Origin: Microbulbifer harenosus
GTDB taxonomy: Bacteria > Pseudomonadota > Gammaproteobacteria > Pseudomonadales > Cellvibrionaceae
Length of the DNA stretch: 64,000 bases
Direction of reading: 5' to 3'
Assembly: GCF_005771435.1 (NCBI RefSeq)
Contig: NZ_VANI01000001.1
Location: forward strand, 1 to 64,000
Shown here: piece after piece, positions 45,248 to 54,262 of the stretch
Position numbering within the stretch: position 1 is the first letter of the stretch
Layout: every line of letters starts with the position of its first letter
Position numbers and translations under genes: made by a program
Notes under the pieces: model-generated
What the model was told of the DNA's origin: nothing
Database searches by the model: none
What the model saw: only the letters and a program-made list of their open reading frames with translations

Positions 45248-45358
45248 GGCAAAGCACTGGGTATAGGTTTTCAGGACCGCGGTGAACCCATCCATGGGCG
45301 CTGCGGCGCAAACATCCTGTTTGCGACGCTCCTGAAAACCTATACCCAGCGCTTTGCC
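45248..45358. repeat. Long palindromic repeat, family C, copy 1
   Basis: Outer arms of 29 bases (45248-45276 and 45330-45358) match at 28 positions. The core carries a hairpin CGCAAAC-ATCCT-GTTTGCG (45307-45325) and CCCATCCATGGG. It lies between the dienelactone hydrolase and trmH genes. See copies at 46161, 46641 and 51581. Confidence 0.88.
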
Positions 45359-45381
45359 TTCGCATCGAAATTCGGAGTTAC

Positions 45382-46068
45382 TTACTGGTTGGGTTGGCGG
45401 TACTTCGGATCTGCCGGCGGAATAATATCGCCATCTTCATCCAAGTCCGGAAATGGCAAATCGTACTTCTCGCAATACTTCACCATTTTCGGGTGCATCC
45501 AACGGAACAAAATGTCTTTGACCGCGGGGTCTTCTTCGTCGAGGGTTTTGTTGTCGTACATGCCGGCTTTCATGCGCTGATGCATGGCTTCCTGCAGGAT
45601 GATCGCGGCGGCGACGCTGACGTTGTAGCTTTCGACCATGCCGATAATGGGGATGGTGACGTGGTCGTCGGCGTGTTCGGCGGCGTAGTCGCTGAGGCCG
45701 TCTTTTTCGGCACCCATGATGAGGGCGAAGGGTTGGGTGTAGTCGGGTTCGCGGAAGTCGATGGCGCGGTCGGACCAGTGGGCGGCGTACAGGTGCATGC
45801 CGCGGCTTTTGAGTTCGGCCATGCCGCTCTGGATATCGGGATAGACGCTGTTGCCAGTGAATTTACCGCTGCCGCCGGCGGTGTTGCGATAGATTCGGGT
45901 GCCGTAGGAGGGCTGGACCATGTGGATTTCAGGAATGCCGACGGCGTCGGCGGTACGCAGCATGGCGGAGATGTTCTGGCCTTTGTGGACCTGGTCGGTG
46001 AGCAGGGTCATGTCGTGCTGGCGCAGGCGGAGCACCTGCTTGAATTTCTCGTAGCGGCTGCGGCTCAT
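45382..46068 (-). CDS. trmH: tRNA (guanosine-18-2'-O)-methyltransferase
   Basis: TrmH, 228 residues, a SPOUT-class enzyme that methylates G18 in the tRNA D-loop. Motif 1 VHKGQNISAMLRTADAVGIPEIHMVQP, motif 2 ALIMGAEKDGLSDYAAEHAD, motif 3 IPIIGMVESYNVSVAAAIILQEAMHQRMKAGMYD, in order and spacing like E. coli TrmH. The acidic C-terminal tail contains DLPFPDLDEDGDI. Family C repeats flank it on both sides. Confidence 0.92.
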   Translation of the reverse strand: MSRSRYEKFKQVLRLRQHDMTLLTDQVHKGQNISAMLRTADAVGIPEIHMVQPSYGTRIYRNTAGGSGKFTGNSVYPDIQSGMAELKSRGMHLYAAHWSDRAIDFREPDYTQPFALIMGAEKDGLSDYAAEHADDHVTIPIIGMVESYNVSVAAAIILQEAMHQRMKAGMYDNKTLDEEDPAVKDILFRWMHPKMVKYCEKYDLPFPDLDEDGDIIPPADPKYRQPNQ

Positions 46069-46160
46069 GGTACTTCTTTCTTCGGATTCAGAACTGGCCG
46101 CGGATTATAGCATTGTGAGTTGGAGCGGGTTTTGTGGTGCCTGCTTGGGTGGTGTGTGGC

Positions 46161-46271
46161 GGCGGATTGCCGGGTGCGGGGTTTCAGGACCGCTGTGAAC
46201 CCATCCCTGGGAGCTTCGTCGCAAACATCCTGTTTGCGACGATCCTGAAACCCCACACCCGGCACTCCGCC
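46161..46271. repeat. Long palindromic repeat, family C, copy 2
   Basis: Outer arms 46161-46189 and 46243-46271 match at 27 of 29 positions. Same orientation and core as copy 1, but with different arm bases on both sides. Lies upstream of trmH. Confidence 0.88.
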
Positions 46272-46286
46272 TTCGCATCTGGGACT

Positions 46287-46580
46287 TTACAGTTCGACGA
46301 GTGCGTAGTGTTCCACTTCGGGGAACGGGTCGTAGAAGTGATGGAGAAGGGCTTTCCAGTCCTGATATTGGGGTGACTTTCGGAAGCCTTCTGTGTGGTC
46401 TGAGAGTTTTTCCCAGTTAACCAAGAGAATGTAGCGATTTTCTTTCTCTAGGGATTTTTGAAATTGATGGTTTATGTAGCCAGGCATAGCCGAAATTATC
46501 GACTGGGCTTTTCGAAAGGCAGTTTCAAACTCTTTATTCTGACCGGGCTTGATATCCAGAATCGCTACTTCAAGAATCAC
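46287..46580 (-). CDS. Antibiotic-biosynthesis monooxygenase (ABM) domain protein
   Basis: A 97-residue ferredoxin-like ABM-fold protein: ILEVAILDIKPGQNKEFETAFRKAQSIISAMPGYINHQFQKSLEKENRYILLVNWEKLSDHTEGFRKSPQYQDWKALLHHFYDP. ABM proteins act on quinones, haem or aromatic compounds; small stand-alone members are mostly uncharacterised. GTG 46580 is chosen because GGGGAAC precedes it and family members begin MILEVA. Flanked by family C repeats. Confidence 0.82.
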   Translation of the reverse strand: MILEVAILDIKPGQNKEFETAFRKAQSIISAMPGYINHQFQKSLEKENRYILLVNWEKLSDHTEGFRKSPQYQDWKALLHHFYDPFPEVEHYALVEL

Positions 46581-46640
46581 GCTGTTCCCCAAAAACTAAA
46601 ATTCAAATTCGTCAAATAAAAGCTCAAAACGTCATGCGAA

Positions 46641-46751
46641 GGCAAAGTGCTGGGGATGGGGTTTCAGGAGCGTCGCAAACAGGATGTTTGCGCCGAAGCG
46701 CCCAGGGATGGGTTCACAGCGGTCCTGAAACCCCATCCCCAGTGCTTTGCC
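46641..46751. repeat. Long palindromic repeat, family C, copy 3
   Basis: Outer arms 46641-46669 and 46723-46751 match at 27 of 29 positions. The core is in the opposite orientation to copies 1 and 2 (CGCAAAC-AGGAT-GTTTGCG). Lies between the ABM gene and moeA. Confidence 0.88.
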
Positions 46752-46783
46752 GCCACCGAGTTCCCTTACCAAGGACCACCAAT

Positions 46784-48037
46784 CTATTTCAGAGGCGCTG
46801 TAAACGGTTCAACGGTAACCCAGTCCCCGGTTTCACAGTCCCCCCCCTCCCGAGGTAAAACCACAAAACAATTTGCGGAGGCAAAGCCGGAGAGAATGTG
46901 ACTCCCCTGAATACCGCGAGTCTCCACCACCTGAATCCCATCGCCATCGCGATAGGTAAACCCGCGTTGGTAATCTGTGCGACCGGGCTTCTTGCGAATG
47001 CCATTCAGCAATCGCGCGCGCAATTGCACGGGGGGTTGGCGATATTGTTCTGAGGTGCCGCGGAGCTTTTCCAGTGCTGGTACGACCAGTTGGTACAGGG
47101 TGACGATGGCGGATACGGGGTTTCCGGGCAGGCCGAAAAAGAGGGTTTCTCCGTTCGTTTTTGGCAGGCGACCAAAGGCAAAAGGTTTGCCGGGTTTGAT
47201 GGCGAGTTTCCAGAAATCGATTTCGCCGAGTTCCTGCAACACCGTCTTGGTGTAGTCCGCTTCGCCCACGGAAACACCGCCACTGGTAATTACGAAATCC
47301 GCATTGTTACGTGCATGAATGAACGCCTCGCGAATTTCCTCAGGCTGGTCGGGATAGCAGCCGAGATCGAGGATATCCACATCGAGTTGTTCCAGTGCAG
47401 CGTAAAGAGCGATACGGTTGCTGTCATAGATATCGCCGTCGCCCAATTCTGACGCGGGCGTGCCGAGGGGTTTCAGTTCGTCGCCGATGGAAAGCAGGGC
47501 GGCTTTGAGTTTGCGCAGGACCGTGACTTCGGCCACGCCGGCGGCGGCGAGCAGGGCGATGTGGGGGACTTTTATTTTGGCGCCGACGGGAATCAGGCTC
47601 TGGCCGGTGTGCACGTCCTCGCCGCGGCGGCGGATGTTCTCGCCGGGTTTGGCGGGGCGGCTCATGGTGAGCTGATCGCCCTCTAATGTGCAGTTTTCCT
47701 GCATCTGTACACGGTCGGCGCCAGCGGGTACGGCGGCGCCGGTGGTGATGCGGGTGGCCTGACCCGGTTCCAGTGTCCCGGCGAACGGGTGGCCGGCGAG
47801 GCTCTTGCCCATGAGGGTGTAGCGCTCAGATTCACCACACAGGGCGTAGCCGTCCATGGCGGAATTGTCGCAGGGGGGCAGGTTGAGGGCGGAGAGTACC
47901 GGTGCGGCCAGTACGCGGCCGCAGGCTTGGCTCAACGGAATAATTTCCGTTTCGGTAATTGGATTGATGCTGTCGATCAGCATTTGTTTGGCGGCTTCTA
48001 CGGAGCGCAGGCCGTTTTCTGCACAGGCGTCTGACAT
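46784..48037 (-). CDS. moeA: Molybdopterin molybdenumtransferase
   Basis: MoeA, 417 residues, inserts molybdenum into adenylated molybdopterin. Seen: NLPPCDNSAMDGYALCG, ATRITTGAAVPAGADRVQMQENC, the MPT-binding domain VITSGGVSVGEADYTKTVLQELGEIDFWKLAIKPGKPFAFGRL and FFGLPGNPVSAIVTLYQLVVPAL. It sits next to nasA and near the right-edge molybdoenzyme, both of which need the cofactor. ATG 48037 (MSDACAENG) is used; the upstream extension is not conserved in style. Confidence 0.94.
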   Translation of the reverse strand: MSDACAENGLRSVEAAKQMLIDSINPITETEIIPLSQACGRVLAAPVLSALNLPPCDNSAMDGYALCGESERYTLMGKSLAGHPFAGTLEPGQATRITTGAAVPAGADRVQMQENCTLEGDQLTMSRPAKPGENIRRRGEDVHTGQSLIPVGAKIKVPHIALLAAAGVAEVTVLRKLKAALLSIGDELKPLGTPASELGDGDIYDSNRIALYAALEQLDVDILDLGCYPDQPEEIREAFIHARNNADFVITSGGVSVGEADYTKTVLQELGEIDFWKLAIKPGKPFAFGRLPKTNGETLFFGLPGNPVSAIVTLYQLVVPALEKLRGTSEQYRQPPVQLRARLLNGIRKKPGRTDYQRGFTYRDGDGIQVVETRGIQGSHILSGFASANCFVVLPREGGDCETGDWVTVEPFTAPLK

Positions 48038-48130
48038 CGCTATGGCCCTGTTTATTGTCTGCTTGGCTGGGAAGATAGCCGGGACGGGTGGGAGTTGCCA
48101 AGTCTTCAGAGGGGTGGCCCGCACGACCAC

Positions 48131-48198
48131 CGTCATTCCGGGCTTGACCCGGAATCCAGCGCTACGAAGCTGGATGCCGGATCAAGTCCGGCATGACG
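48131..48198. repeat. Dispersed palindromic repeat, family B, copy 1
   Basis: CGTCATTCCGGGCTTGACCC and GGAATCCAG on the left, then CTGGATGCCGGATCAAGTCC and GGCATGACG on the right: two hairpins in mirrored arrangement. This is a type of repeat widespread in proteobacterial genomes. Copies at 48271, 56477, 58154 and a short form at 51521. Confidence 0.85.
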
Positions 48199-48270
48199 TT
48201 GATTCTGTGAGGTGGGCAGGTGCAGTGCATCTCCCAATCGGTTCAAAAGCATCGCACGTCTATCGTGATT

Positions 48271-48338
48271 CGTCATTCCGGGCTTGACCCGGAATCCAGT
48301 GCCACGAAGCTGGATGCCGGATCAGGTCCGGCATGACG
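48271..48338. repeat. Dispersed palindromic repeat, family B, copy 2
   Basis: Nearly identical to copy 1, 72 bases further on in the same orientation, between moeA and nasA. The two copies occupy most of this 317-base gap; I see nothing else in it. Confidence 0.85.
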
Positions 48339-48354
48339 GTGTTTTGTATGGTAC

Positions 48355-51057
48355 TTAACCGACAGCGACGGCCAAGTTGGTGGTCAGCAGTGCGGAGATT
48401 TCCGGTTTGCAGGAACCGCAGTTGGTGCCGCAGCCCAGCAATTCACCGAGTTCCTCCACCGATGCCGCACCTTCGGCGATGGCGATTTCGATTTCCTTGC
48501 GGGACACCTGCAGGCAGGTACAAACCATCTGCGCGCCGGCAGGCACGTCGTGCAACAGCTTGGCCGGCGCATCCGGCAGGGGTTGTTGCAGGGCGTTTTC
48601 CAACGTTTTCCGGTCGGGCAGGGACTGCCATTCAGCGCTGGTGAACACCAGCAACTCCATCTGCTCACTGTGTAACAGCCAGCGTTCACCACTCGGCAAC
48701 TGCAGGCGTTTGCGGTTGAGCTGCTGACCACTGAGGTTGAACAGCTTGTCTGCCATGGCCTGCCAGTCCGGCTGGGTTTTCAGGGCCAGCTCGAAGCGGT
48801 AGCCGCCGTCCACCGGTACCCGGTACCAATGCAGTATGGTGTCGAACAACTGTGCATCACCGGCCTGCAAGCGGGTATGCAGTTCCTCCGCAGCTTTGGT
48901 GCGCAGCAGCAGGCAGGCATAGCTGTGGGCACTGAGCGGTTCGATCTTGACTGCCACCTGTTTCAGTTCCGGCTGGCCGGAAAAGGGGTCGGTGAAGGGG
49001 ATGGCCAGCGCACTCACAGTAGCGTTGTGGGCAAGGCTGTCGCTCCAGTGAATGGGTGCAAACAGCTGGCCGGGTTTCTGGCTGGCGGTGACGCGGGCGC
49101 GCCCGAAGAACTGGCCTTTTTCGCTTTCCACGCGCACCAGCTGTGCATCTTCGATGCCGTACTTCCGCGCTTCCTGGGGGTGTATATGCAGCTCCGGCGC
49201 CTCGCTGTGATCCAGCAGCTTGCGCGCACGGCCGGTGCGGGTCATGGTGTGCCACTGGTCGCGCAGGCGGCCGCTGTTCAGTACCAGTGGATATTCGTCG
49301 CGGGTTTCCTGCTTTGGACACTGGGGATCAACGGCAATAAAACGCGCACGTCCATTGGGCGTAAAGAAGTCGCCATCACTGAACAATCGCGCGGTACCTT
49401 GCGGATTGGCGGCGTTGACCGGCCACTGCACCGGGGTAAAGTTGTCGTACTCCGCATCGCTGATATTCGCCAGTGCGGAAATATCGAATGCGCGTCGCAC
49501 CTGCTCGCGGTTGTTTTCAAATCCGGAAAGCGCCGCGTGTTCGCGGAAAATATCCGCAGCCGATGCGTAGTCGAAGGCCTCTGCAAAGCCGAGGCGGCTC
49601 GCCACATCGCAGATTATTTCCCAGTCGTGGCGCGCTTCCCCTGGCTTCGGCAGGAAACCTTTCTGACGGGAAATGCGGCGCTCGGAGTTGGTGACGGTAC
49701 CGGTCTTTTCCGCCCAAGTGGTTGCAGGCAGCAGCAGATCCGCGCAGCGCGCGGTATCCGTATCCGCCACGCAGTCGGATACGATCACCGTGGGGCAATT
49801 TTTCAGCGCCGCAGCCACACGGCGCGCGTCCGGCATGCTTACCGCGGGATTGGTGGCCATGATCCACACCGCTTTTACCTGGCCGCTCTCCACCGCATTG
49901 AACAGGTCTACCGCCTTGAGTCCTGGTCCTTTCGCCATATTGGCCGCATTCCAGAATCGGCCCACGCGCTCGACATTGTCTGCAGTGAAATCCATATGCG
50001 CGGCGAGCATATTCGCCAGCCCCCCCACCTCGCGCCCGCCCATGGCATTGGGCTGGCCGGTAATTGAGAAGGGGCCGCAACCGGGCTTGCCAATGCGTCC
50101 GGTAGCCAGATGGCAGTTGATAATGGAGTTGTTCTTGTCGGTCCCGGTGCTGGACTGGTTGACGCCCTGGGAATAGAAACTGATGGCTTTTTCCGTAGTG
50201 CGGAACAGCTCGTAGAATTCGAGCAACTGCTCCAGCTCCAGGCTGCAATACTCCGCCACCTTCTCCGGCGTCCACTCGGCCGCCGTATACAGGGCTTCGG
50301 TAAAGTTTTCCGTGTGGTTTTCAATAAACCCCTGATCCAGCGCACCGAACTCGGCAAGGTAGTGCAATAGCCCGTTGAACAGAGCCGCATCACTGCCCGG
50401 TGTAATCGCCAGATGCAGATCCGCCATCTCACTGGTGGCACTGCCGCGGGGATCGACGACGACGAGTTTCGACTTGGCCGCCTGCATACGCTGAAACAGG
50501 ATCGGATGGGTCCAGGCGGCGTTGGAGCCGATCAGCACCACCAACTCCGCTTCATCCAGATCCTCGTAATTACACGGCACCGCATCCGCGCCCAGCGCAC
50601 GCTTGTACGCCGCCACCGCGGACGACATGCACAGGCGCGAATTAGTATCCACATTCGCCGTGCCGATGAATCCCTTCATCAGCTTGTTGGCCACGTAATA
50701 ATCTTCCGTCAGCAACTGCCCGGAAAGATAAAAGGCCACCGAATCCGGCCCGTGTTCGTCGATGGTCTCACGCAGCTTCGACGCCGCAAAATCCAGCGCC
50801 GTATCCCAGTCGCAATCCACACCGTGCAGGCGTGGCTTCAACAGACGGCCGTGGTTGCCCAGGGTATCCGCCAGCGAAGAGCCCTTTACACACAGCTTGC
50901 CCTTGTTCGCCGGGTGCTGCTCATCGCCCTGGATGCGAACCACCTCCTCACCACCCGCCGACGTCATCTCCCGCGTCGCCGCGACACCGCAGCCCACGCC
51001 GCAGTAAGGACAGGTAGTGCAGGATCTGCGAGCGCTGAACAGTTCTGTTAAAGCCAT
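48355..51057 (-). CDS. nasA: Assimilatory nitrate reductase catalytic subunit
   Basis: A 900-residue NasA-type molybdoenzyme reducing nitrate to nitrite in the cytoplasm. The N-terminal 4Fe-4S site is TTCPYCGVGCGV (Cys about 14-21). The bis-MGD domains include LCMSSAVAAYKRALGADAVPCNYEDLDEAELVVLIGSNAAWTHPI and GPFSITGQPNAMGGREVGGLANML. The C-terminus carries a BFD-type 2Fe-2S domain (about 845-895: CTCLQVSRKEIEIAIAEGAASVEELGELLGCGTNCGSCKPEI). No signal peptide, as expected for assimilation. Last gene of nirB-nirD-nasA, 27 bases after nirD. Confidence 0.95.
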   Translation of the reverse strand: MALTELFSARRSCTTCPYCGVGCGVAATREMTSAGGEEVVRIQGDEQHPANKGKLCVKGSSLADTLGNHGRLLKPRLHGVDCDWDTALDFAASKLRETIDEHGPDSVAFYLSGQLLTEDYYVANKLMKGFIGTANVDTNSRLCMSSAVAAYKRALGADAVPCNYEDLDEAELVVLIGSNAAWTHPILFQRMQAAKSKLVVVDPRGSATSEMADLHLAITPGSDAALFNGLLHYLAEFGALDQGFIENHTENFTEALYTAAEWTPEKVAEYCSLELEQLLEFYELFRTTEKAISFYSQGVNQSSTGTDKNNSIINCHLATGRIGKPGCGPFSITGQPNAMGGREVGGLANMLAAHMDFTADNVERVGRFWNAANMAKGPGLKAVDLFNAVESGQVKAVWIMATNPAVSMPDARRVAAALKNCPTVIVSDCVADTDTARCADLLLPATTWAEKTGTVTNSERRISRQKGFLPKPGEARHDWEIICDVASRLGFAEAFDYASAADIFREHAALSGFENNREQVRRAFDISALANISDAEYDNFTPVQWPVNAANPQGTARLFSDGDFFTPNGRARFIAVDPQCPKQETRDEYPLVLNSGRLRDQWHTMTRTGRARKLLDHSEAPELHIHPQEARKYGIEDAQLVRVESEKGQFFGRARVTASQKPGQLFAPIHWSDSLAHNATVSALAIPFTDPFSGQPELKQVAVKIEPLSAHSYACLLLRTKAAEELHTRLQAGDAQLFDTILHWYRVPVDGGYRFELALKTQPDWQAMADKLFNLSGQQLNRKRLQLPSGERWLLHSEQMELLVFTSAEWQSLPDRKTLENALQQPLPDAPAKLLHDVPAGAQMVCTCLQVSRKEIEIAIAEGAASVEELGELLGCGTNCGSCKPEISALLTTNLAVAVG

Positions 51058-51084
51058 CGTCTACTGCTTATCTTTTAAAAGTTG

Positions 51085-51441
51085 TTATTGATCAACCTGA
51101 ATCAGCACATCGTCGCCTTCAAACGCGACCGGAAAAACCTCGAGTTTATACTCGGGCTTTTCCAGGCACTGACCGTCGCTCAGTCGGTAATGCTGCTTGT
51201 ACAGCGGCGACGCCACCGTCAGCTCACCGTCGATCTCCGCAACAATACCGCGGCCGATCACACCGGCATCGGCGATCGGGTCCCAGTTGTCGATGGCGTA
51301 CAGCTGGGGTTCCTGATCGGGTAAAAAAAACAGGGCAATCTGACGACCGCCCACAAGAGCGCACACTCCGGAATCGGCTACAAGATCTGATCGCTTGCAG
51401 ACATGCAGCCACTCGGCGCGGGTTATGGCAACTTCGCTCAT
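51085..51441 (-). CDS. nirD: Nitrite reductase small subunit
   Basis: NirD, 118 residues, a Rieske-fold subunit of assimilatory NADH-nitrite reductase. WLHVCKRSDLVADSGVCALVGGRQIALFFLPDQEPQLYAIDNWDPIADAGVIGRGIVAEIDGELTVASPLYKQHYRLSDGQCLE shows the fold. The Cys-His cluster ligands of true Rieske proteins are missing, which is normal for NirD. ATG 51441 has GGAG upstream. Between nirB and nasA. Confidence 0.94.
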   Translation of the reverse strand: MSEVAITRAEWLHVCKRSDLVADSGVCALVGGRQIALFFLPDQEPQLYAIDNWDPIADAGVIGRGIVAEIDGELTVASPLYKQHYRLSDGQCLEKPEYKLEVFPVAFEGDDVLIQVDQ

Positions 51442-51520
51442 TCTGGTTCTCCACATCTTGATGAAAGAGTAGGGTGGTGAAATTCTAAAAGTCTAAGTTC
51501 TGTTCCAGCTTCTGTGGGGC

Positions 51521-51547
51521 TGGATTCCGGCCTGCGCCGGAATGACG
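51521..51547. repeat. Short family-B-like repeat
   Basis: TTCCGG-CCTGCG-CCGGAA inside TGGATTCCGGCCTGCGCCGG + AATGACG: a single hairpin related to the family B half-element. Between nirD and family C copy 4. Confidence 0.6.
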
Positions 51548-51580
51548 AAAGGAATTAAAAACACTTTCGCACGGCGCGAA

Positions 51581-51691
51581 GGTGGAGTGCCGGGTGTGGG
51601 GTTTCAGGAGCGTCGCAAACAGGAAGTTTGCGCCGCAGCGCCCATGGATGGGTTCACAGCGGTCCTGAAACCCCACACCCGGTGCTCCACC
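51581..51691. repeat. Long palindromic repeat, family C, copy 4
   Basis: Outer arms 51581-51609 and 51663-51691 match at 27 of 29 positions; orientation as copy 3. It lies between nirB and nirD, so it would be transcribed within the nirB-nirD-nasA message. Confidence 0.88.
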
Positions 51692-51733
51692 GCCACCAAA
51701 CCCATTCAGAGCGGGCGGTGGCAGCGGGCTAAA

Positions 51734-54262
51734 TCAAGCCGGCTCACAAATCTTGACGATCTCCTCGCGGGTCGCCGGGCGGCGCTGCTCGCGCTCTTCC
51801 ACGAATACGATCTTCTCGTCCTTCGCATCGGTGTTCACAAACTGGCGGAAACGCTTCACCATCTCAGGGTCATTGATCGCAGTCTTCCACTCACACTGGT
51901 AAGTGCCCACCACATTGCCCATCTGACGCTCCAGTTCCTCAGCGAGCCCCAGGCTGTCCTCGATCACCACCTCGCGCAGGTAATCCAGGCCACCCTCCAG
52001 GTTCTCCAGCCACACCGAAGTCCGCTGCAACTTGTCCGCCGTGCGCACATAGAACATCAGAATCCGGTCGATATACTTGATCAGGGTTACATCATCCAGA
52101 TCCGTCGCAAACAGATCCGCATGGCGCGGACGCATACCGCCGTTGCCACACACATACAGGTTCCAACCCTTCTCGGTGGCGATCACCCCGATATCCTTGC
52201 TCTGCGCCTCCGCACACTCACGGGTACAACCGGACACCGCCATCTTGATCTTGTGCGGCGAACGCAGGCCCTTGTAGCGGTTCTCCACAGTCAGTGCCAT
52301 ACCCACACTGTCCTGCACGCCATAGCGACACCAGGTACTGCCCACACAGGACTTCACTGTACGCAGGGATTTGCCATACGCGTGGCCAGTCTCAAAGCCC
52401 GCATCCGTCAGCTCGCGCCAGATCTCCGGCAGCTCCTCCAGACGCGCACCGAACAGATCGATACGCTGGCCGCCGGTAATCTTGGTGTACAGGTCGTATT
52501 TCTTCGCTACCTGGCCCAGCACGATCAGCTTGTCCGGCGTGATCTCGCCGCCGGCGATGCGCGGAACAACGGAGTAGGTACCGTTCTTCTGCATATTCGC
52601 CATAAAGGTATCGTTGGTATCCTGCAGGCCCACATGCGGTTTCTTGTGGATATGTTCATTCCACAGCGACGCGAAAATGGAGCCGGCGGTGGGCTTGCAA
52701 ATTTCACAGCCCTTACCGCGGCCGTGCTTGTGCAGCAGCTCGTCGAAGGTCTTGATTTCCTCCACCTGCACCATGTGGAAAATCTGCTGGCGGGTATAGG
52801 GGAAGTGCGGGCACAGATCGTTATTGACCTCGACGCCCAGCGCCGCCAGCTCCGCGTCCACCACATTTTTCAGCAGCGCGGAACAGCCGCCACAGCCGGT
52901 GCCTGCCTTGGTGCAGTCTTTCACTTCGCCCACGGAACAGCAGCCGCCCTGCACCGCACCGATAATGTCGCCCTTGCTCACGTTGTGGCAGGAACAGATG
53001 GTCGCGGTGTCCGGCAGTGCGCCCGCGCCGAGGGTCGGTTTGGCACCGTCCAGCGCCGGCAGGATCAGTTGCTCCGGGTGTTCCGGCAGATCCATATCGT
53101 TCAGGTGGTATTGCAGCAGGGTGTCGTAATCCCCGGTGTCGCCCACCAGCACTGCGCCGCGCAGTTTCTTGCCCGCGCGGTCGGTGATCATGCGTTTGTA
53201 CACACCGGTCTGCTCGTCCACAAAGGTGATCGCGGCGGAACCTTCGGTGCGGCCGTGGGCATCGCCGATAGAGCCCACTTCCACACCCAGCAGCTTCAGC
53301 TTGGTGCTCATGTCGGCGCCGTTGAACTCAGCTGCCTCGCCGCACAGCAGGGATACCGTGGTGCGGGCCATGGAGTAACCCGGTGCGACCAGGCCGAAGA
53401 TGCGGTTGTCGAACAGGGCACACTCGCCGATGGCAAAAATGTTCTTGTCGGAGGTGCGGCAGTGGTTGTCGATCACAATTCCGCCGCGCTCGCCGAGTGT
53501 AATACCGGCGGAGCGTGCCAGGTTGTCTTCCGGGCGGATACCGGCGGAGAACACGATCAGGTCGGCGATGAGTTCTTCATCACCCTTGAACTGCATGCGC
53601 AGGCGACCGCCGTCCACTTCCTCAATCAGTTCGGTGGCGGTACTGGTGTGTACGGTAACGCCCAGCTCCTCGATTTTTTCCCGCAGCAGTTTCGAACCGC
53701 CTTCATCCAGCTGCACGGACATCAGGCCGGGGGCAAACTCCACCACGTGGGCTTCTAGGCCCAGTTGCTTCAGGGCGTTGGCGGCTTCGAGGCCCAAAAG
53801 GCCACCGCCCACCACCACGCCGACCTTGCCGTTTTTGGCGGCGGCCTGGATCTTGTCGAGGTCTTCCAGGGTGCGGTAAACGAAGCATTTTTCGTGCTCG
53901 TGACCTGGGATTGGTGGGACAAAGGGATAGGAGCCGGTGGCCAGTATCAGATGATCGTAGGCTTCGGACGCACCGCTGGCGGAGGTGACGATTTTATTTT
54001 CGCGATCGATGCTCACCGCGGTGTCGTTCAGACGCAGGTCGTAACCCCACTCGCGGTACTGTTCCACCTTGCCCATGGCCAGGTCATCCGCGGTGCGGCC
54101 GCCGAAGTATTCGGACAGGTGTACCCGGTCGTAGGCGGGGCGGGGTTCGGCGCAGAACACCAGCACGTCGAACATTGCACGCTCGGGGCGGTTCGCCAGT
54201 TGTTCCAGGAAGTGGTGACCCACCATGCCGTTGCCGATGACGACGATTTTTTGCTTAACCAT
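51734..54262 (-). CDS. nirB: NADH-dependent nitrite reductase large subunit
   Basis: NirB, 842 residues, reduces nitrite to ammonium. FAD/NADH domains at the start (KIVVIGNGMVGHHFLEQL; VGVVVGGGLLGLEAANAL). A BFD-type 2Fe-2S domain (TICSCHNVSKGDIIGAVQGGCCSVGEVKDCTKAGTGCGGCSALL) with a further Cys-rich segment. The sirohaem/4Fe-4S domain has CVGSTWCRYGVQDS and SGCTRECAEAQSKD. ATG 54262 (MVKQKIVVIG) is the natural start. Heads nirB-nirD-nasA and is preceded by a sigma-54-like promoter. Confidence 0.96.
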   Translation of the reverse strand: MVKQKIVVIGNGMVGHHFLEQLANRPERAMFDVLVFCAEPRPAYDRVHLSEYFGGRTADDLAMGKVEQYREWGYDLRLNDTAVSIDRENKIVTSASGASEAYDHLILATGSYPFVPPIPGHEHEKCFVYRTLEDLDKIQAAAKNGKVGVVVGGGLLGLEAANALKQLGLEAHVVEFAPGLMSVQLDEGGSKLLREKIEELGVTVHTSTATELIEEVDGGRLRMQFKGDEELIADLIVFSAGIRPEDNLARSAGITLGERGGIVIDNHCRTSDKNIFAIGECALFDNRIFGLVAPGYSMARTTVSLLCGEAAEFNGADMSTKLKLLGVEVGSIGDAHGRTEGSAAITFVDEQTGVYKRMITDRAGKKLRGAVLVGDTGDYDTLLQYHLNDMDLPEHPEQLILPALDGAKPTLGAGALPDTATICSCHNVSKGDIIGAVQGGCCSVGEVKDCTKAGTGCGGCSALLKNVVDAELAALGVEVNNDLCPHFPYTRQQIFHMVQVEEIKTFDELLHKHGRGKGCEICKPTAGSIFASLWNEHIHKKPHVGLQDTNDTFMANMQKNGTYSVVPRIAGGEITPDKLIVLGQVAKKYDLYTKITGGQRIDLFGARLEELPEIWRELTDAGFETGHAYGKSLRTVKSCVGSTWCRYGVQDSVGMALTVENRYKGLRSPHKIKMAVSGCTRECAEAQSKDIGVIATEKGWNLYVCGNGGMRPRHADLFATDLDDVTLIKYIDRILMFYVRTADKLQRTSVWLENLEGGLDYLREVVIEDSLGLAEELERQMGNVVGTYQCEWKTAINDPEMVKRFRQFVNTDAKDEKIVFVEEREQRRPATREEIVKICEPA

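Follow-up and report, generated by a model that had tools for sequence, protein, structure and literature searches.

The four palindromic elements of the window

We analysed the first 64,000 nucleotides of contig NZ_VANI01000001.1 of Microbulbifer harenosus (assembly GCF_005771435.1), a stretch hereafter called the window, which contains four long palindromic elements whose adjoining genes pass the NCBIfam cut-offs for TrmH, MoeA, NirD and NirB. A first-pass annotation had described four elements of about 110 bp with a common core hairpin and outer arms of 29 bp matching at 27-28 positions, two in each orientation, all between genes and one inside the nirB-nirD operon, and our analyses agree with this description. 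A covariance model (R1), built from 72 diverse copies, matched four places in the window and no others (E <= 0.001), namely 45248-45358, 46161-46271, 46641-46751 and 51581-51691. Watson-Crick pairs occupy 28, 27, 27 and 27 of the 29 arm positions in the copies starting at 45248, 46161, 46641 and 51581, respectively, the other arm pairs being one or two G·U in each copy plus one mismatch in 46161. The arm sequences quoted as examples in that annotation were correct, and the core hairpin gave seven motif matches with up to 3 mismatches (0.09 expected), confined to these four places, three of which were read on both strands. Two copies lie each way, all four are intergenic, and the genes on either side of the copy at 51581 pass the curated NirB and NirD cut-offs.

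Each module comprises approximately 112 nt (about 170 nt including conserved edges) and folds as a three-way junction on one strand. On this strand, termed the GGA strand, the order is 5' arm, hairpin P3, hairpin P2 and 3' arm, and the arms form an outer stem (P1) of about 29 bp. The features are listed below; hairpins were assigned from sequence and fold, and the two arms of copy 3 from arm pairing and family covariation.

45248-45358, minus (GGA strand): element copy 1; R1 match of 117.0 bits; arms with 28 Watson-Crick and 1 G·U of 29 pairs
45303-45329, minus: hairpin P3 of copy 1; loop AGGAU, to which the computed fold adds an A-U pair, leaving GGA
45279-45301, minus: hairpin P2 of copy 1; loop AUGGAU
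46161-46271, minus (GGA strand): element copy 2; R1 match of 117.5 bits; arms with 27 Watson-Crick pairs, 1 G·U and 1 mismatch
46216-46242, minus: hairpin P3 of copy 2; loop AGGAU
46192-46214, minus: hairpin P2 of copy 2; loop AGGGAU
46641-46751, plus (GGA strand): element copy 3; R1 match of 112.8 bits; arms with 27 Watson-Crick and 2 G·U pairs
46641-46669, plus: 5' arm of P1 in copy 3; partner 46723-46751
46670-46696, plus: hairpin P3 of copy 3; loop AGGAU
46698-46720, plus: hairpin P2 of copy 3; loop AGGGAU; asymmetric internal loop on the 3' side; pairs 61/96, 62/82 and 63-66/73-76 of the 72-copy alignment A3
46723-46751, plus: 3' arm of P1 in copy 3
51581-51691, plus: element copy 4, between nirB and nirD with its GGA strand antisense to both; R1 match of 119.4 bits; arms with 27 Watson-Crick and 2 G·U pairs
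51610-51636, plus: hairpin P3 of copy 4; loop AGGAA
51638-51660, plus: hairpin P2 of copy 4; loop AUGGAU

Relatives carry orthologous copies at the site of copy 4. A 738-aa open frame (window 51542-53758, plus strand) overlaps this copy and runs antisense through nirB; it is probably spurious.

Family size, range and covariation

The four palindromes are members of a dispersed multi-copy family. A plain DNA search of the Microbulbifer genome returned 50 matches, including reverse faces of the same copies and pieces, and the covariance-model search that the first-pass annotation had called for found at least 149 copies (149 of the 150 scored candidates match R1), which is a lower bound because only 150 of 2242 first-look candidates were scored. 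The 115 own-genome copies used below were taken from 217 model matches, of which the best 150 were considered along with one that ranked lower. When 859 kb of the genome were searched for long palindromes by their arms only, 117 came up, and 109 belonged to the GGA-loop family; this sequence had been picked because copies lie there, so that densities do not represent the genome average. Six simulated 64-kb sequences with the nearest-neighbour composition of the window held no palindrome of family size. Seven of 171 palindromes were left out of the counts as they had no GGA hairpin.

Within the genus, 31 of 48 genomes match by DNA (E <= 0.01), some by a single weak match. In the order, 52 of 145 genomes and 38 of 91 genera match R1, as do 34 of 185 genomes in the class (E <= 1e-4; the own genome is included in all three counts), with up to 26 (order) or 20 (class) candidates scored per genome, for which reason a genome lacking a match is not proven to lack the element. 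An exact core pattern, whose 42 named matching stretches are all from Microbulbifer, is too narrow to describe the family, since the R1 matches extend across order and class. A plasmid search with a core from genome G050 gave no match, and the titles and abstract beginnings listed in literature searches contained no description of this family as a repeat.

Pairing within the elements is kept while their sequence changes. In the 72 copies, 94.8% of 3292 cells are paired and two-sided changes occur at 38 of 46 pairs, with 669 two-sided cells compared with 186 ± 14 in 500 shuffles, controls in which relatedness among copies remains, and 65-164 in slid controls. Many of these copies came from the palindrome search, which favours paired P1 arms; for a check set, 26 copies were instead collected by their plain similarity to a single copy (4 of 30 similarity loci, being partial or odd-length copies, were left out). 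Among these, 25 of 40 pairs changed on both sides, and two-sided cells numbered 118, whereas shuffles gave 30.9 ± 5.8 and slid controls 9-26. Hairpins P2 and P3 show such changes too, in both sets. The plan is retained in copies from distant families, whose arms and P3 stems are quite different. In several species, a subset of copies bears an insert of about 13-14 nt, rich in G (GGGGGGCGCCTAGC-type), on the 3' side of P2 (e.g., L004:1696-1820, L050:5228-5352 and L053:4984-5108).

These perfect arms could also be those of passive palindromes, i.e., relics devoid of selected function in which template switching copies one arm onto the other, an explanation that we consider improbable. It would account for arm identity averaging 35-72% against 71-87% for the core within each of six genomes, and for the inner arm part beside the core (positions 18-27 from the outside), which in the own genome is nearly mismatch-free even though arms differ between copies. 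Template switching is described as creating and maintaining perfect stems (PMC8794818) and as homogenising arms (PMC8604942). Under such passivity, loops would drift and cores would sometimes be inverted; yet the GGA columns of the P2 and P3 loops are invariant in the 72-copy alignment while the adjoining stems vary, and none of 114 own cores is inverted relative to the edges GAAGG and CCGCCAC, which are conserved outside the stem in the own genome.

Strand asymmetry, GGA loops and resemblance to known RNAs

Further evidence on the folded molecule came from wobble pairs in the outer stem. On the GGA strand, G·U outnumbers A·C by 161 to 5 in 112 own copies. The 106 copies taken from other genera (28 genomes) show 96 to 19; of these genomes, 19 are G·U-rich, 2 show the opposite and 7 are ties. 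In the similarity-found set the count is 38 to 1. The sets exclude 2 of 108 and 2 of 114 copies, in which fewer than 20 of 28 pairs were Watson-Crick; identical sequences were omitted here and in the loop statistics. The wobbles are not independent events, because those at two neighbouring positions recur in 44 and 56 of the 112 own copies; subtracting both from the table leaves 61 G·U and 5 A·C. Since an A·C on this strand is a G·U on the opposite one, the excess indicates that the folding of one particular strand, the GGA strand, is maintained. A hairpin of RNA or single-stranded DNA therefore fits better than a symmetrical cruciform, the asymmetry being equally compatible with both molecules. 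The computed folding of the two strands is about equally good. The first-pass annotation had proposed that pairing is selected, as in a cruciform or RNA hairpin, or that the arms convert each other; covariation bears out the preserved pairing, but the cruciform in its symmetrical form fits less well. Template switching at the DNA level does not on its own account for such a one-strand excess, which again speaks against passive palindromes, although a form of template switching biased in direction and strand has been put forward to explain base-pair asymmetry in RNA stems (PMC8794818).

The conserved loops resemble binding sites of the global regulator CsrA. The consensus obtained by systematic evolution of ligands by exponential enrichment (SELEX) is RUACARGGAUGU, with ACA and GGA fully conserved and loops mostly of 6 nt (PMC7652899; the consensus is also given in PMC3856055), and the GGA hairpin loops of the elements lie near it. 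The GGA strand carries the motif CANGGANG in 112 of 115 own copies and in 105 of the 106 others; for the opposite strand the figures are 1 of 115 and 4 of 106, respectively. Exact CsrA SELEX 12-mers number 29 in the 859 kb, where about 0.4 are expected at equal base frequencies; 26 are inside called copies, all on the GGA strand, and two of the other three are in cut or truncated copies. In 186 of the 210 copies measured, 20-21 nt separate the two GGAs, a distance inside the 10-63 nt, with an optimum above 18 nt, over which one CsrA dimer bridges two sites (PMC7652899). These sequence features point to a putative CsrA-binding module on the GGA strand. The dispersal of the elements, their junction structure, their pairing on one particular strand and their GGA loops are direct findings; CsrA binding, transcription and mobility are inferences. 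The own genome carries one csrA gene. Genomes G038 and G114 have 9 and 11 CsrA-family matches, and most of the 74 genomes one.

The Rfam family TwoAYGGAY (RF01731) recognises the same kind of places as the GGA-loop family. At E <= 1, 9 of 13 genomes match it, with scores above the cut-off at 5 places in 3 genomes. The own genome has six matches, each agreeing in place and strand with an R1 match; the best reaches 40.3 bits against a gathering score of 43. None of these six places lies on the contig of the window, whose copies do not match RF01731 at the gathering score, nor at E <= 10 in the three of the four that were compared at that level. The first-pass annotation had missed the GGA loops of the family, its high copy number and this link. 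TwoAYGGAY is listed as a candidate RNA for gamma-Proteobacteria, Clostridiales and human gut sequences (PMC2864571), with a poorly conserved external stem and predicted CsrA binding (PMC4333381). Both families share two hairpins with A-N-GGA-N loops and such an external stem; they differ in that most loops here read AGGGAY, AUGGAY or AGGAU and just a part are AYGGAY (at loop position 2, G is commoner than T in own copies, and both occur in relatives), and in that the available descriptions present TwoAYGGAY as a small RNA (sRNA) candidate, compared with at least 149 dispersed copies with copy-specific arms here.

Repeated A(N)GGA loops, which titrate CsrA in the sponge RNAs CsrB/CsrC, RsmX/Y/Z and Alteromonas Aln1, are also present here; Aln1 consists of three sRNAs encoded in one intergenic region (PMC5864184). 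In contrast, the elements have two putative sites per copy in many dispersed copies. The CsrB, CsrC and RsmX/Y/Z models of Rfam gave no window match at the gathering score and, when 20 short loci from relatives were searched at E <= 1, no more than a partial RsmY match (20.2 bits, cut-off 57). Other Rfam families, considered at relaxed thresholds, were rejected as they scored far below the cut-off and were mostly plant or animal microRNA precursors.

The interpretation we tentatively put first, with slightly less than an even chance, is that of a dispersed TwoAYGGAY-like element carrying on one strand a CsrA-binding module, whose many copies act as a distributed CsrA decoy. A copy that is transcribed, e.g., by read-through just past a stop codon, would yield an RNA presenting two CsrA/RsmA sites, which one dimer could hold at once; many copies together would titrate CsrA, and single transcripts would be marked for CsrA. 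The arms would drift by paired changes because they need only pair, while the loops must keep GGA; template-switch repair probably helps such changes. Some copies were lost by deletion between short repeats at the arms.

Several observations weigh against the decoy interpretation. Exact 12-mers are confined to 26 of the 115 own copies and to 5 of the 106 others, and P3, of up to 11 bp, is atypical because most SELEX hairpins have 4 or fewer contiguous pairs (PMC7652899). The automatic caller found a GGA loop in 107 of 112 P3 and 89 of 112 P2 hairpins of the own genome, and in 102 of 106 and 85 of 105 elsewhere, the rest being miscalls or true exceptions (e.g., P2 of L220 and L209). The presence of CsrA does not discriminate, as it is found in 45 of 46 tested genomes that bear elements and in 26 of 28 genomes having no match. 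The P1 covariation and wobble counts were helped by the choice of copies, made through a palindrome search or model; the counts in the similarity-found set serve as the control for this. Furthermore, a sponge explains neither stems of about 29 near-perfect pairs nor the 5'-to-5' pairs of copies described below, and single copies between co-directional genes have the GGA strand in sense in 23 cases and antisense in 18, which gives no sign of selection for sense transcription; such neutral orientation argues against a simple mRNA role.

Genomic setting, mobility and biological meaning

With genes called by our own codon-usage script, 108 of the 109 copies with both neighbours called are intergenic (6 of 115 elements did not have two called neighbours and were left out), in accordance with the lack of coding capacity previously noted. 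The 82 regions with copies comprise 62 co-directional, 16 convergent and 4 divergent ones, compared with 241, 33 and 89 among all 363 regions that are 100 bp or longer. Where a single copy stands between co-directional genes, its median distance past the stop codon of the upstream gene is 44 bp (sense) or 38.5 bp (antisense). This avoidance of divergent regions (4 of 82 against 89 of 363) and proximity to stop codons would suit a hairpin that processes or stabilises the 3' untranslated region (UTR), the long stem blocking 3' exonucleases or being cut by RNase III, which is how ERIC and NEMIS are known to work. We regard this as quite improbable for the present family: purifying selection on insertions would leave the same positions, and, as the two strands hardly differ in how well they fold, the strand asymmetry and conserved GGA loops are unexplained by it. 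Palindromic miniature inverted-repeat transposable elements (MITEs) such as ERIC and NEMIS are intergenic palindromes of 100-150 bp found in either orientation; they are not known to have a GGA-loop three-way junction with copy-specific covarying arms. A replication-strand bias, assessed by local GC skew, was discarded as too weak and indirect (GGA strand on the G-rich strand 42 times, on the other 61).

Where copies occur in pairs, their 5' ends mostly face each other across a gap of 37-203 bp (24 against 4 in the own genome, 26 against 1 in other genera). This arrangement and the neutral orientation relative to genes are the chief facts for which a pure sponge offers no explanation, and they keep alive a reading as mobile DNA. 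According to it, the family is REP/BIME- or MITE-like, a single-stranded hairpin whose GGA loops are recognised by a non-Y1 enzyme, the 5'-to-5' pairs being the complete element and single copies its halves; we judge this fairly unlikely. Known REP/BIME sequences are likewise intergenic, palindromic, present in many copies and often paired in inverted orientation, and REP hairpins carry a GTAG/GGAG-type tetranucleotide at their foot; the present elements differ from REP/BIME-RAYT systems in showing no Y1 linkage, a long three-way structure and arms that vary between copies. The dispersal over at least 149 places, the edges conserved outside the stem in the own genome and the single folded strand, which suits single-stranded DNA too, are consistent with mobility, as is the prevalence of one P3 stem, differing between genomes, in some of them (G136, G050) and not in others (G123, G139).

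On the other side, the association with a RAYT/Y1 transposase suggested by the first-pass annotation was not supported. The own genome has three Y1 genes (PF01797), and R1 had no match within about 1.5 kb on each side of 33 Y1 loci (the 3 own places plus 30 of the remaining 37; 18 genomes together); moreover, 3 of 20 genomes gave no Y1 match, though 26, 22 and 18 of their 26 scored candidates are elements. A link to a Y1/RAYT transposase was rejected after a search of the own genome and 20 others, the 33 loci taken from them showing no element. Also contrary to mobility, neither a target duplication nor a clean empty site was established, and if a transposase co-evolved with the element, it would be surprising to see GGA loops unchanged across so many families. 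A Y1 open reading frame of 148 aa on contig C11 of the own genome (C11:128594; L032:1350-1450) has a GTAGGAGCCTGC...GCAGGCGAAC palindrome just upstream, which likely represents a separate REP family; palindromes of this type account for 4 of the 8 non-family long palindromes in the 859 kb.

Orthologous sites in relatives revealed how copies change in place. In the trmH surroundings of 19 genomes, the same sites hold different core types, which in some genomes stand on similar arms; elsewhere they hold nothing, or keep a short scar left where the element was removed between repeated GGC/GGCA near the arm ends (e.g., in G022 and G011). At the latter two (L084 and L096), the scar joins GGTGGC to GGC(A/G)CTTTGCC, a junction of the kind that slippage over a long palindrome would produce. 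Sites with and without the element exist, and some of those without it hold deletion scars. At nirB-nirD, where 30 of 43 sites were read, 15 hold complete copies of this type, all in one orientation, which indicates that some copies are old and fixed and counts against mobile DNA; the other 15 comprise 2 more distant copies, 1 cut by a contig end and 12 sites with none. The first-pass annotation had expected compensatory rather than one-sided arm changes, and pairwise differences at this site are indeed mostly two-sided (417), yet 199 are one-sided. Parsimony inferred 31 one-sided changes (18 leading to Watson-Crick pairs, 7 to G·U and 6 to other combinations) and 22 two-sided ones, each of which ended in a Watson-Crick pair; because several one-sided changes rest on arbitrary A·C ancestors and repeated identical changes suggest ectopic conversion, these counts were not used as a rate. 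Matched arm differences at fixed sites imply either that arms are altered in situ or that conversion from other copies replaces them entirely; template switching (PMC8794818) may contribute to the arm changes. Another repeat, with two 74-nt copies of 93% identity in the window (48131-48204 and 48271-48344; CGTCATTCCGGGC...GGAATCC), also occurs at some of the orthologous trmH and nirB-nirD sites of relatives.

Returning to the CsrA decoy, these findings tie an orphan Rfam RNA family to a large dispersed repeat. A broader proposal, also fairly unlikely, is that TwoAYGGAY in Gammaproteobacteria is not a single sRNA and instead is a self-spreading element with a near-optimal CsrA site pair on one strand, whose 100 or more copies after stop codons would make a distributed sponge of the transcripts of the host, with arms drifting freely as only pairing matters. 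The decoy reading predicts that CsrA, a global regulator, is bound at more than 100 intergenic sites; if true, the copy number of the repeat would set the level of free CsrA and, hence, global regulation, and a sponge of this kind might either benefit the host or reflect an element that protects itself by means of CsrA. Its hundreds of copies and known orthologous sites also make the family an unusually rich natural test of how perfect stems evolve, by selection or by template switching.

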